A stretch of DNA of 27,162 nucleotides, taken from a virus. Positions 3,278 to 14,815 of this stretch are shown piece by piece. The notes beneath the pieces are model-generated. The model did no database searches and was not told where the DNA came from. It was given only the letters and a program-made list of their open reading frames with translations. The translations under genes were made by a program, and so were the position numbers. How positions within the stretch are numbered: position 1 is the first letter of the stretch; every line of letters starts with the position of its first letter. The stretch lies in IMG/VR virus record IMGVR_UViG_3300021389_000126, positions 1-27,162 of that record; one strand, 5' to 3'.

Positions 3278-3734
3278 TTATATCATTCTCTATTATTACA
3301 TCAAATGTAGCTGCCCATCCTGCTACTTGGTTCTCAAACCTATCTCTAAATGGCTCTAATGAAGCGTCTCCTAGTACTTGGTACTTCTCTCTGTATAACT
3401 GTCCGATTCTTAGTTTCTGAATAACCTTGTTAAGAACAGATAGTTGAGTGTTTAGCACATCTTGCTCATTGTCATTACCTACAAATATATCTGTCTCTCT
3501 TTCTTTAGACTGGTCTACTATATCCATAGCCAAGATACTGATGTTAAATGTCAGCGTGTTCTCTGATGAGGTTACACTATTAACTATCATATGAGACAAA
3601 GGAAAGATAGTCTGCTTACTTAGGTCTACTTCTGTTAAGTCTCCTGTGGTTACAGTATTGACATTGACATCACTTAGTAGCGTGTCTTTAATGGTGTCTG
3701 TTAGTAAGTAGAATCCTCTTATTGATGTGTTCAT
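3267..3734 (-). CDS. Tail terminator-like protein candidate (155 aa)
   Basis: 155 aa, predicted alpha/beta. It opens with a helix containing LLTDTIKDTLLSD, has a hydrophobic strand FPLSHMIVNSV, then TFNISILAMDIV, and ends with AGWAATFDVIIENDINVC. This 'short helix, strand about a measured property, strand, helix, final strand' pattern resembles tail terminator or minor-tail proteins that cap the tube. Its ATG overlaps the TGA of the -1 frame tail-chaperone extension (ATGA, 3734-3731), so translation of the two is probably coupled. Function is inferred from gene order; no catalytic residues are visible. Confidence 0.5.
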   Translation of the reverse strand: MNTSIRGFYLLTDTIKDTLLSDVNVNTVTTGDLTEVDLSKQTIFPLSHMIVNSVTSSENTLTFNISILAMDIVDQSKERETDIFVGNDNEQDVLNTQLSVLNKVIQKLRIGQLYREKYQVLGDASLEPFRDRFENQVAGWAATFDVIIENDINVC

Positions 3735-4467
3735 TTCATTTTGCTTTTTAGTCTGTTTGCTTCTATCTCTGCTTTCTCTTTCTCAAAGGATAGCATCATA
3801 AAACATTTATGTACACTTAATTTAGTGATATCTTCAAATCGTCTAATATCTCCTTGAGCGAGTGCGTAAACTGATTGATACCAACCCCACTTGCTTCCGA
3901 ATTGAGATATTGCACTAAACTCGTCTCCTCCTGCTCCTCCAAATAGTTCATCATAGCTTGTGATAAGTCTATCCCTAAATGGTAAAAAAAAATAATGGAA
4001 CTGATGACTGCATCTAATGGCATATCCTTCATTACTTCTCCATCTCCTGCTTCATAGTCCACTATAGAGTATTTGTCTCCATATTTGCTCTCTATTGGTC
4101 TATATAGAACTGCCATAGCTCTGTGCATATTTTCCCAGTCTCCTAAGAACGCATCTAAGTCAATGTACTCTCCTAGACTAATATCATCTAGCTTAGGTAT
4201 AAATCCATACTCTACACCTTTCATTTTGAACTTAGTTACAAGCTGAGGTTTCTCATTGAACATATCCACCAATATATTGCAGATACCATCCACATCAGCG
4301 TACTTCATTTTAAGAGTATCTGATAGCTTTACTCCACAGAATATCTCTATCATCTTAGAAGCTAGAAACTTCTCATCTTGGTTATTGTCTTGTATTTTAA
4401 GATACCTCTGATACTGGTCTAAAGTAACCTCTGATAAAGAGTCAGGTATTGTAATCTCTACTTTCAT
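3731..4467 (-). CDS. Tail assembly chaperone, long form made by -1 ribosomal frameshift (245 aa)
   Basis: Predicted product of a join of 4467-3985 and 3985-3731. Frame 0 contains ATT TTT TTT TAC at 3993-3982, in which the heptamer T_TTT_TTT is a classical -1 slippery site within a T9 run. After slipping behind Phe161 the ribosome would read 84 more residues without a stop, including FGSKWGWYQSVYALAQGD and a basic helical end KEKAEIEANRLKSKMK, finishing at TGA 3733-3731. That TGA overlaps the ATG of the next gene, as many junctions here do. The KWGWY-x-S-x-Y-x-LA-x-GD pattern looks like a genuine conserved domain, not noise. Known parallel: the lambda G/GT pair and similar pairs in many siphoviruses, where the longer form recruits the tape measure and tube subunits. 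A single-base sequencing error is the main alternative. Confidence 0.75.
3817..4467 (-). CDS. Tail assembly chaperone, short (zero-frame) form (216 aa)
   Basis: 216 aa. The N-terminal part (KVEITIPDSLSEVTLDQYQRY) is a strand followed by a helix; the centre has a ferredoxin-like run with KMKGVEYGFIPKLDDISLGEYIDLD. This arrangement is common in small tail assembly proteins that are read in two frames. The zero-frame end after the slippery T9 run is acidic and helical (YLEEQEE, SLKEILDDLKISLN). It is preceded 3 nt upstream by the CGTTATATA element and, further upstream, by a terminator, so it probably starts a transcription unit. Function as tail assembly chaperone is inferred from gene order, size and the frameshift arrangement, not from a catalytic motif. 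Confidence 0.7.
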   Translation of the reverse strand: MKVEITIPDSLSEVTLDQYQRYLKIQDNNQDEKFLASKMIEIFCGVKLSDTLKMKYADVDGICNILVDMFNEKPQLVTKFKMKGVEYGFIPKLDDISLGEYIDLDAFLGDWENMHRAMAVLYRPIESKYGDKYSIVDYEAGDGEVMKDMPLDAVISSIIFFYHLGIDLSQAMMNYLEEQEETSLVQYLNSEASGVGINQFTHSLKEILDDLKISLN

Positions 4468-4507: not shown

Positions 4508-4541
4508 ACAAAAAAAGACACCCATTTCTGAGTGCCTCTTT
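4508..4541 (-). terminator. Rho-independent terminator candidate
   Basis: On the minus strand AAAGA + CACTC pairs with GGGTG + TCTTT, a 10-bp stem with a 2-nt GG bulge and a 6-nt loop, followed directly by more T residues. It lies downstream of the 37-aa membrane protein gene (stop 4563) and upstream of the CGTTATATA element of the tail unit. Confidence 0.65.
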
Positions 4542-4562
4542 CATACTAACTAAACTTACTTA

Positions 4563-4676
4563 TTATTCAAACATAGCTGCTAGGGTCATTAAGCATACTG
4601 CTGCAGCTCCAAACAGTATGACAAAGGATATAAAGTAATATAAATTCTCAGGGTCTTTCTTAAGCCAATTTCTCAT
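4563..4676 (-). CDS. Small single-membrane-segment protein (37 aa)
   Basis: ATG at 4676-4674, TAA at 4565-4563. The protein starts with MRNWLKKDPENL, a basic cytoplasmic-like head, and then has one long hydrophobic segment (YYFISFVILFGAAAVCLMTL) to near the end. It overlaps the last 17 nt of the upstream 73-aa gene, which argues for real, coupled translation, and is followed by a terminator. A short membrane protein in this position could be a holin-like, superinfection-exclusion or membrane-anchoring factor; the sequence does not decide. Confidence 0.55.
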   Translation of the reverse strand: MRNWLKKDPENLYYFISFVILFGAAAVCLMTLAAMFE

Positions 4677-4881
4677 AATGGTATATTTTATCTTCTATTC
4701 TATTAATAACGTATTGTGATAGTAAATCTGTGATGTCTGTTTTATGACCATCTAATGTAGTTGAGATAATCTCTATAGAGTCTGGACTAGATGGTTCAAA
4801 GTATCCACCTTCTTCTCCCTCGTCAAACTCGTATTCTACTTCTAGTAAAATGTCATCAATGTTAATTTGTATTGTACTCAT
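4660..4881 (-). CDS. Small acidic protein of unknown function (73 aa)
   Basis: 73 aa. It has alternating hydrophobic strands (TIQINIDDILLEVEYEF), then an acidic loop EGEEGGYFEPSSPDS and a strand (IEIISTTL), and closes with a helix containing LLSQYVINRIEDKIYHYE. The first two thirds look like a small all-beta fold; phage early proteins of this kind ('dyEf..G..-..p..p.e.eI..v...g.dit.ll') are common and mostly uncharacterised. It has a convincing host-type promoter of its own at 4907-4938 and a leader of the AAAAACAGACAG type, so it is probably expressed apart from the terminase genes upstream. No function assigned. Confidence 0.65.
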   Translation of the reverse strand: MSTIQINIDDILLEVEYEFDEGEEGGYFEPSSPDSIEIISTTLDGHKTDITDLLSQYVINRIEDKIYHYEKLA

Positions 4882-4956: not shown

Positions 4957-5061
4957 TTATTCTTTTCTATAATACCAATAAGCAAAGGCATAGATAAGTG
5001 CAGCACTTATAAGACCTAAGAGTATATCTACATTACTTTTATCTAATAGCATATTTTCCAT
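4957..5061 (-). CDS. Small single-membrane-segment protein overlapping terL (34 aa)
   Basis: ATG at 5061-5059 with a second in-frame ATG at 5052-5050; TAA at 4959-4957. After a short polar start (MENMLLDKSNVD) there is one hydrophobic segment (ILLGLISAALIYAFAYWYY) and a charged end RKE. It starts inside the 3' end of the large terminase gene in another frame, so it is likely translated by coupling. It resembles the 37-aa protein at 4563-4676 in size and topology but not in sequence. Function unknown. Confidence 0.5.
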   Translation of the reverse strand: MENMLLDKSNVDILLGLISAALIYAFAYWYYRKE

Positions 5062-6181
5062 AGTTAGGCTTGCTTAGTACATTGTAAGTTGCATATCTGA
5101 AAGCATCTATTAGGTGGTTGTTTTTATCTATTGGTATGTTGGTCAGCTTGCCAGTCTTATCCTCAGTCCACTTATAGTTTCTCATCTCTTGGATAAAATG
5201 GTCTCCCTCTATTTTTAGCTTGTATCTCCTTAGTACATCTATTCCTGCTTGGATAGAATCCCTGCCTTTTATAGTTGCTCTTACTTGGTTACCCATCCTC
5301 CTAAGCTCATCTATCAATCTAGGCTCTGCACTATCACAATATATCACTCCATTGATATTAGCCTCTCTAAGAAACTTATTTATATCTTGGGTAGTCATAT
5401 GGGTTCTGTAGAGTAATTCTTTAGCATATAGCGTGTCTTGGTCTCTATAGACCTCTACTAAAGTTGTTGGGTCATTAGTATATCCAAAGTCCATACCATA
5501 AGATAAAAACTGAGCTGAGTCAGGTATCTTACCCTCTGAGAAACTAAAGATAGTTGCCTTAGATACTCCTTTTTGTCCTAGACCATATATCTGCCAGTAA
5601 GTCTCATCTGTTTCTTTTAGCCTCTCAATCTCTGTTCTGATGTTAGGGTCTAAGAATGGATTGTCTTTGTAAGTAGTGATATAGAAATCACAATCCTGTC
5701 TAGTTAGCACCTCATCATAAATAAAGTGATACTCGTCTGAAGGGTTGTAATCTAGTATGACTTGTTCCTCTGTTCTAAATATAAGTTGTTGCCAGTCCTC
5801 TTTGTTTATCTCATTAGCCTCATTAATAAAAAGTAATTGTCTTTTACGACCTCTTACCTTCTGAGGTATGTCTAAGCTAATAAACTCTATTAGGTTGTTC
5901 TTTAGATTGTATTCAGAGTTAGACTTATTGTGGTCTGCTTCTGAGTAGATGTTATGCTTTTTAAGGATGTCTAAGAAATCTCTCATTACTGTAGCTCTAA
6001 GAGATGGGAAGGTCTTTCTACAGATTGTTATTGTCTTTCCCTCGTGTCTTGCACAGTAGTCAAATATAATCCACAAAAGGATGTTATAAGTCTTTCCTGA
6101 CCTAGTACCACCCTGATGTGCTATAATCTTATGATTGTTATTTATTAAACTACTATATACCTTATTGGTTTGAATCCTCAT
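5039..6181 (-). CDS. terL: Terminase large subunit (380 aa)
   Basis: ATP-driven DNA packaging motor with headful or end-cutting nuclease. Walker A GGTRSGKT at residues 24-31; Walker B LLFINE at 116-121; coupling motif around YNPSDE at 145-150. The C-terminal RNase H-like nuclease has D231 in MDFGYTNDP, D283 in YCDSAEP and D359 in HLIDAFRY, the expected three acidic residues. Length 380 aa is at the short end of the family (about 400-450), as in PBSX-type (Terminase_3-like) enzymes. Its ATG lies 20 nt inside the small-subunit gene, a normal terS-terL overlap. The gene is not followed by portal, as would be usual, but by two tiny membrane-protein genes and the tail module. Confidence 0.95.
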   Translation of the reverse strand: MRIQTNKVYSSLINNNHKIIAHQGGTRSGKTYNILLWIIFDYCARHEGKTITICRKTFPSLRATVMRDFLDILKKHNIYSEADHNKSNSEYNLKNNLIEFISLDIPQKVRGRKRQLLFINEANEINKEDWQQLIFRTEEQVILDYNPSDEYHFIYDEVLTRQDCDFYITTYKDNPFLDPNIRTEIERLKETDETYWQIYGLGQKGVSKATIFSFSEGKIPDSAQFLSYGMDFGYTNDPTTLVEVYRDQDTLYAKELLYRTHMTTQDINKFLREANINGVIYCDSAEPRLIDELRRMGNQVRATIKGRDSIQAGIDVLRRYKLKIEGDHFIQEMRNYKWTEDKTGKLTNIPIDKNNHLIDAFRYATYNVLSKPNYGKYAIR

Positions 6182-11302: not shown

Positions 11303-11424
11303 TTTTTTCTTTTTTCTCGTCTACGTTGTTGTTTTAGCATTATTGCTTTGTCTCTTTCTTTTCTATACTCCCATCCTGTAATTGGGTGTATCTGATTTTT
11401 GATAAGTTCTTCAATTCTGTTCAT
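11293..11424 (-). CDS. Small very basic protein (43 aa)
   Basis: ATG at 11424-11422, TAG at 11295-11293. The first half is MNRIEELIKNQIHPITGWEY; the second half is strongly basic and ends QQRRREKRKKWD. The ATG overlaps the TGA of the sigma-like gene (ATGA), supporting coupled translation. A basic tail of this kind could bind nucleic acid, or, next to a sigma-like factor, help it act; neither is shown. Confidence 0.55.
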   Translation of the reverse strand: MNRIEELIKNQIHPITGWEYRKERDKAIMLKQQRRREKRKKWD

Positions 11425-11903
11425 TTGAATAAGTCTTTAAGGTGTTTCTTTACTTTTCTATAGGTGTTATAAAGTGAGTAATAACTTATGTTTGTTTTGT
11501 CGCTCAAAGATTGGAAACTCTCTCCTGAATCTATTATCTCAAATACCTTTCTATCATACCAGTACAAAGATTCCATTTCTTTATTGAGCTTATCATATAA
11601 TACTTGGTAGTCTATATGTAGTTCTTGATGTAGCTCTTTTGTGATTTCTTCTAATCCTAGTACCTCTACCTTAGCTTCTTTTCTTTTAAGGTCTAAGAAT
11701 AGGGTTTGTAGGGTTCTGTAGACATAGTAGTAATTAACCTCCTGTTCATTGTACATTATATCAGTTCCTGCTTTGACTAGCCTGTCAATCTTAATGTACA
11801 TCTCCATCACTATATCCTCTGCGGTGTCAGGATTAACTCCAAAGGATTCCACTATATCACACCAGTCTTGATGCTTTTTAAAGATTATCTCTAATACCTC
11901 CAT
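11421..11903 (-). CDS. Sigma-70-family-like RNA polymerase sigma factor (160 aa)
   Basis: Start taken at the ATG 11903-11901 (MEVLEIIFKKHQDW...); a GTG start at 11933 would add 10 residues and overlap the upstream gene more. Residues about 15-50 contain VNPDTAEDIVMEMYIKIDRL, which resembles region 2 of small sigma factors ('a-E-D-l-v-q-e-v-f-l-k-l'). The C-terminus, DRKVFEIIDSGESFQSLSDK then TNISYYSLYNTYRKVKKHL, is laid out like region 4, a helix-turn-helix in the place that reads the -35 box. It would redirect host RNA polymerase to phage promoters. The CGTTATATA elements are candidate targets, though nothing in the sequence links them directly. Alternative: a general sigma-like HTH regulator. 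Confidence 0.7.
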   Translation of the reverse strand: MEVLEIIFKKHQDWCDIVESFGVNPDTAEDIVMEMYIKIDRLVKAGTDIMYNEQEVNYYYVYRTLQTLFLDLKRKEAKVEVLGLEEITKELHQELHIDYQVLYDKLNKEMESLYWYDRKVFEIIDSGESFQSLSDKTNISYYSLYNTYRKVKKHLKDLFK

Positions 11904-12082
11904 ACCGTTATATGTAAACCAAACAACAGACACATAATTGTAATCTGATGGTAAAAATCGTCTTGGTCTACATCGTCTAGGTCAGGCTCTAAATTAGGAT
12001 TGTAATATAACACTCCTGCTGATAATCCGTATATTGGTATAATCTGTAAATCTACCCCTACACTACCGAAATCTATTTGCAT
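11891..12082 (-). CDS. Small hypothetical protein (63 aa)
   Basis: 63 aa. MQIDFGSVGVDLQIIPIYGL then GVLYYNPNLEPD are strand-like; an acidic loop (LDDVDQDDFYHQ) and a hydrophobic end (ITIMCLLFGLHITVWRY) follow. The end could be a strand pair or weak membrane-associated helix. The gene lies between the helicase (9 nt upstream) and the sigma-like gene, whose ATG it overlaps by 13 nt. Small proteins of this type ('yyp....') follow helicases in related phages, but I know no function. Confidence 0.55.
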   Translation of the reverse strand: MQIDFGSVGVDLQIIPIYGLSAGVLYYNPNLEPDLDDVDQDDFYHQITIMCLLFGLHITVWRY

Positions 12083-14587: not shown

Positions 14588-14815
14588 CTAATATCCGTCT
14601 TGGTGTTGTAAGAGTAGCTTACCAGTATCAAAGTCTAGGTCTTTTATAGCTCTGTAGATTATCCTAGAATTTTTTTTTACTTCTTGCTTCTCAGCCTTAG
14701 TACTGTCTGAACCCAAGTTCGTGTACATAATAGCATCTAACTCTAAGAGTTGGTTAATCCTTTCTACTACTGTTTTCTGATAATCCTCTGCAATTCTTAG
14801 TATTTCTTCTCTCAT
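14588..14815 (-). CDS. Helical hypothetical protein (75 aa)
   Basis: 75 aa, mostly helical: REEILRIAEDYQKTVVERIN then QLLELDAIMYTNL, and a basic segment AEKQEVKKNSRIIYRA. No known motif. It is the first gene downstream of the AT-rich repeat region (14824-14908) and abuts ninG directly, so it is probably co-translated with it. Possibly a partner of NinG; no direct evidence. Confidence 0.6.
   Translation of the reverse strand: MREEILRIAEDYQKTVVERINQLLELDAIMYTNLGSDSTKAEKQEVKKNSRIIYRAIKDLDFDTGKLLLQHQDGY

Follow-up and report, generated by a model that had tools for sequence, protein, structure and literature searches.

The closest described systems are the gpG/gpGT pair of phage lambda and gp13 of HK97 with its -1 extension. 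In both, a common N-terminal part leads to a -1 shift at a slippery heptamer, a rarer long form carries a second domain, and the gene lies within a structural-gene cluster. To our knowledge, the known G/GT examples overlap little. A second kind of system is formed by genes that use transcriptional slippage, such as Shigella mxiE, Thermus dnaX and IS elements (PMC1088944, PMC5009743), in which at least nine A or T stand in the overlap of two ORFs, the run and the ORF order are conserved, and RNA structure is dispensed with. A third comparison is offered by genes 40/41 of the Nonlabens phages P12024L and P12024S (Inhavirus), whose annotation lists the -1 part as a hypothetical protein of its own and mentions no frameshift.

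The gene described here lies in a window of 27,162 nt, the whole stretch of viral DNA that was analysed (IMG/VR record IMGVR_UViG_3300021389_000126), and it shares the properties listed above for lambda and HK97, the rarer long form being a predicted one. It differs from them in its slip site, a pure T9 or T10 run, and in its place after the terminase gene rather than before the tape measure gene. HK97 gp13 has no detectable sequence relation to it, and the zero-frame stop in HK97 comes about 20 nt past GGGAAAA, the putative shift site, compared with a median of 166 nt here. The genes with transcriptional slippage share with it the long run in a two-ORF overlap, the conserved order and the lack of RNA structure, yet the run here is also a perfect ribosomal heptamer, and the present case is known from DNA alone; a literature search for transcriptional slippage of such a kind in a phage tail chaperone gene found no report. 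The Nonlabens phages have a homologous N-terminal part (about 31%) and the same gene order after the terminase, and the sequence of P12024L, as read here, has a T9 run at which the -1 frame leads into the KWGWY domain. ORF 41 of P12024L (4528-4695 in locus L081) corresponds to the last part of the extension of ORF 40 in the -1 frame. Unlike the frame-0 tail of the window, that of P12024L is short and unrelated, and the comparison of the sequences thus marks the long frame-0 tail as a clade feature and the -1 domain as general.

It is very probable, judging from the sequences compared, that slippage at the T9/T10 run makes two products from one start, as a pair of the lambda G/GT type. From a single start codon two proteins would arise, sharing residues 1-160 and diverging in their C-termini. 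Most passages would stay in frame 0 and yield 216 aa; a fraction would move back one base at the run (T9, or U9 in the RNA) and yield 245 aa, the last 84 residues coming from the -1 frame. The slip is envisaged as ribosomal, with tandem tRNA(Phe) slippage on U_UUU_UUU; the short form would act as a tail assembly chaperone, and the KWGWY domain would let the long form connect it with the tail-tube protein. The original prediction had described the T9 run with T_TTT_TTT in frame 0, the -1 frame that stays open until a TGA overlapping the next ATG, and the two predicted products. All of these coordinates were reproduced (Table 1), as were both product lengths on translation of the sequence, including the fused length. 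The conserved domain of the extension reads FGxKWGWYQSIYALAQGD.

Table 1. Coordinates of the recoded gene and its neighbours in the window
Feature	Position (nt)	Strand	Remarks
Frame-0 ORF, predicted short (G-like) product	4467-3817	minus	216 codons/aa; residues 1-160 common to both products
Frame-0 stop TAA	3819-3817	minus	
T9 homopolymer at junction	3992-3984	minus	codons 159-162 = ATT TTT TTT TAC
In-frame heptamer T_TTT_TTT (X_XXY_YYZ)	3991-3985	minus	
-1 frame extension (T-like part of predicted 245-aa product)	3985-3731	minus	84 residues (3985-3734) + TGA
Stop of -1 extension, TGA	3733-3731	minus	overlaps ATG (3734) of next gene
Dual-coding stretch, 166 nt	3985-3820	minus	both frames under selection
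Next gene, 155 aa	3734-3267	minus	ATG overlaps -1 TGA; same neighbour in nearly all relatives inspected
Terminase large subunit	5039-6181	minus	PHROG terminase matches; upstream of recoded gene in most relatives inspected

A first scan of viral contigs returned 80 relatives, all of which have the run and both open frames, and in which the -1 domain is conserved wherever the contig reaches far enough. Further scans, seeded with either half, P12024L, a Flagellimonas contig and more distant members, raised the total to 494 loci, which comprise 377 different segments and fall into 116 clusters at below 85% identity. Because some of the seed peptide patterns contained FF, this sample is almost but not entirely unselected for the run. 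Among the loci are a phage in culture, P12024L of Nonlabens, and a Flagellimonas onchidii contig. In 494/494 the frames meet at an uninterrupted T9 or T10 run, and no run shorter than nine occurs. T_TTT_TTT, which has the X_XXY_YYZ form of -1 frameshift sites, is present in every one of them, and so is the arrangement typical of transcriptional slippage, a conserved run of at least nine A/T joining overlapping ORFs. The codons at the junction are NTT TTT TTT followed by TAY, TGG, TTG or TTC, or else TTT TTT TTT TNN, with a single exception, locus L169, which has TTT TTT TTT CTG and keeps nine Ts. Codon substitutions account for the difference between T10 and T9 sites, and no frame-joining indel is involved. 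HMM profiles built on each half place the C-terminal domain in the -1 frame in 386/386 and 108/108 loci, and never in frame 0 or +1. A -1 protein without conservation, named by the original prediction as evidence against itself, is thus not what its proposed alignment to the proteins of relatives returned, the domain being present in that frame throughout. The same frame relation at a pure T9 or T10 in so many relatives places the recoding site far beyond chance. Relatives with the two halves fused in frame were sought by further scans, and none was found. Three BFVD models (A0A516L5A8, A0A6J5MY57 and A0A6J7WDG4), single proteins of 226-260 aa, match the frame-0 part and, weakly, the -1 domain in Foldseek; they may be distant relatives which encode the long form without a shift.

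The pattern of substitution bears on whether both ends of the gene are used. Pairwise differences at the third codon base, compared among 51 sequences of less than 90% identity, fall in frame 0 from 0.575 upstream, where only that frame is coding, to 0.288 in the overlap, and the corresponding values for the -1 frame are 0.457 past the frame-0 stop, where it alone is coding, and 0.268 in the overlap. Codons whose use would interrupt the -1 frame with a stop number 0/627 in the overlap versus 1178/2488 upstream, and those that would interrupt frame 0 number 0/385 versus 1062/1798 upstream and 174/229 downstream, as counted over 68 lineages of less than 75% identity, in which clustered lineages were counted separately and no formal phylogenetic test was applied. 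The last frame-0 block, DLKISLN, varies like frame-0 coding sequence, and the KWGWY block varies like a -1 gene. With neither free wobble nor stop-making codons in either frame, the sequences indicate that both frames of the overlap are under selection in the clade. The earlier estimate of about 170 nt encoding two proteins is thereby refined to 166 nt, and the comparison of synonymous sites that it called for agrees in both frames. On this comparative evidence, the frame shift is programmed.

The programmed shift, the conserved -1 protein and the selection on both frames thus stand as originally read, whereas a ribosomal slip is only somewhat more likely than not and the chaperone label is probable. 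A T9/T10 run is also the signature of RNA-polymerase slippage, and the sequence fits either mechanism. Tandem tRNA(Phe) slippage on U_UUU_UUU is the reading towards which we lean, the perfect heptamer at the run counting for the ribosome. It is possible, with a lower probability, that RNA polymerase slips on the T9/T10 run and that a fraction of the transcripts, with one extra U and ordinarily translated, gives the 245-aa protein. Nine A or T is the run length that was searched for in bacterial genomes as prone to slippage, and in Shigella mxiE, the closest model, two overlapping ORFs are joined through an extra base in a U run (PMC1088944). The run here never drops below nine, with no other heptamer in its place, and L169, alone among the relatives in having a 3' codon that starts with another base, carries an additional T codon on the 5' side and retains its T9. 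The depletion of long T runs in other genes irrespective of codon phase points in the same direction. So does the lack of ribosomal stimulators: among 104 lineages no downstream RNA structure was found (mean MFE z +0.25), and upstream SD-like motifs occur in only 16. A downstream structure or an upstream SD is common, not universal, in -1 programmed frameshifting. TTC as the second Phe codon is absent from the TTT TTT TAY sites, where it would keep the heptamer and both proteins; at an expected frequency of about 12%, this absence has P of about 1e-4 with 70 lineages, 0.003 with 45 and 0.02 with 33. Natural X_XXU_UUZ sites, however, are not known to end in C more than rarely, and the codon UUC may in itself slip poorly in the A site, so that the missing TTC is compatible with the ribosome. 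The flanking residues ([ILVF] before; Y, W, L or F after) almost force a T9 or T10 in any case, and the characterised phage chaperones of the G/GT type known to us use ribosomal frameshifting (PMC5009743). All 104 lineages have a stop in the +1 frame no more than 8 nt from the run. This was weighed as evidence for transcriptional slippage and discarded, since YTA-A/G is forced by the conserved L in frame 0 together with R/K in the -1 frame. There is a small chance that both mechanisms operate, or something else.

The pair probably works like gpG/gpGT of lambda, by analogy with that system. The label of tail chaperone derives from the architecture and from the place of the gene in a conserved structural-gene cluster; the G/GT architecture assumed by the original prediction was recovered, but the label itself found no chaperone match in Pfam or PHROG, and the gene does not adjoin that of the tape measure protein. 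The known chaperone families in Pfam gave no significant match, comparisons with HK97 gp13 and TP901-1 gave none, and searches of the PDB by sequence and by fold returned nothing significant. Weak matches were obtained to PHROG 166, 'tail protein' (27/52 members at E<=1, best 2e-4), which was not relied on, being weak and absent from the HK97, TP901-1, 6H and P12024L records. The significant Foldseek matches are uncharacterised phage proteins only; one match is named tail assembly chaperone, at E 0.34. The structure model of the frame-0 protein is confident from residue 1 up to about residue 170 and of low confidence from 179 on, and the AlphaFold model of the -1 extension consists of two long helices, with a moderate mean pLDDT of 72.

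The conserved order runs from the terminase through the recoded gene and proteins of about 150, 170, 350 and 760 aa to a protein of about 580 aa with tape-measure matches. The recoded gene follows the terminase, with the tape measure gene four genes further on, and is thus in the structural-gene cluster and not in the lambda position, between the genes for the major tail protein and the tape measure protein. Absence of a chaperone family match and this setting between the terminase and small structural genes, away from the tape measure gene, would suit a programmed pair that is real but serves as another kind of virion or assembly protein, of which the long form is the minor one. That is unlikely, as a conserved -1 shift that joins a common N-terminal protein to a rarer long form has the look of G/GT, the gene sits in the structural-gene cluster of a phage which bears a tape measure gene, and no other candidate for the chaperone role was found in the gene lists examined.

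Several neighbouring features were also recorded. A 515-aa tail-region protein (1221-2768, minus) contains the stretch DDSGSMGSTLPYLQNM, which resembles a von Willebrand A metal-binding motif, and its gene is extra with respect to the order in locus L164. The 170-aa ORF at 11421-11933 (minus) may by its position match a P12024L protein annotated with sigma-70 region 2. T runs of at least 8 are rare in other genes of related phages. Across the related loci, coding genes contain fewer long runs than expected, whatever the codon phase: 7 T runs of 8 against 28 expected, and 13 A runs of nine or more against 43 expected. The window has a second nine-base run, an A9 on the coding strand at 14670-14678 inside a 75-aa ORF (14588-14815); both other frames end there within a few codons, and recoding is not suggested.

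The -1 part might instead be a separate protein with its own start, as the P12024L record annotates it for ORF 41; this is very improbable. In 18/104 lineages no more than 2-8 nt separate the start of the open -1 frame from the run. From where it opens to 60 nt past the run, the -1 frame has no ATG in 102/104 lineages and none of ATG, GTG and TTG in 69/104. Conservation of -1 residues sets in immediately downstream of the run. The late opening and the missing ATG place the frame shift at the run, and the -1 part would thus be reached by slippage; separate initiation was rejected, ATG being absent near the run in nearly all lineages. Taken with the frame relation, this lack of an independent start agrees with two predicted products from one start through a conserved -1 change, as in G/GT genes. 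Least probable is a sequencing error, a decayed gene or a phase-variable run in what is truly one ORF, which the error-prone and mutable nature of homopolymers might suggest but which was rejected, since all 494 loci keep the -1 relation and the T9/T10, the run length joining the frames that the original prediction had named as the mark of such an error occurs in 0/494, and frame 0 is itself selected to stay open.

The comparative sequence evidence thus describes a recoding site that is real, programmed and dual-coding, and that departs from the known lambda G/GT kind by its T9/T10 site. About 55 codons of true dual coding lie within the gene, and the 494 loci form a large natural comparative set for one recoding site, which has kept to its slippery sequence although protein identities fall to about 25-30%. 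The finding corrects the annotation of a widespread aquatic phage group, which probably infects Bacteroidota and in which the -1 domain has been missed or listed as a separate hypothetical protein. Conservation of the site across the clade makes the choice between ribosome and polymerase directly testable. If the polymerase is responsible, the ratio of the short to the long form would be set at transcription across the whole phage clade, and both C-termini would still be encoded in the same 166 nt.
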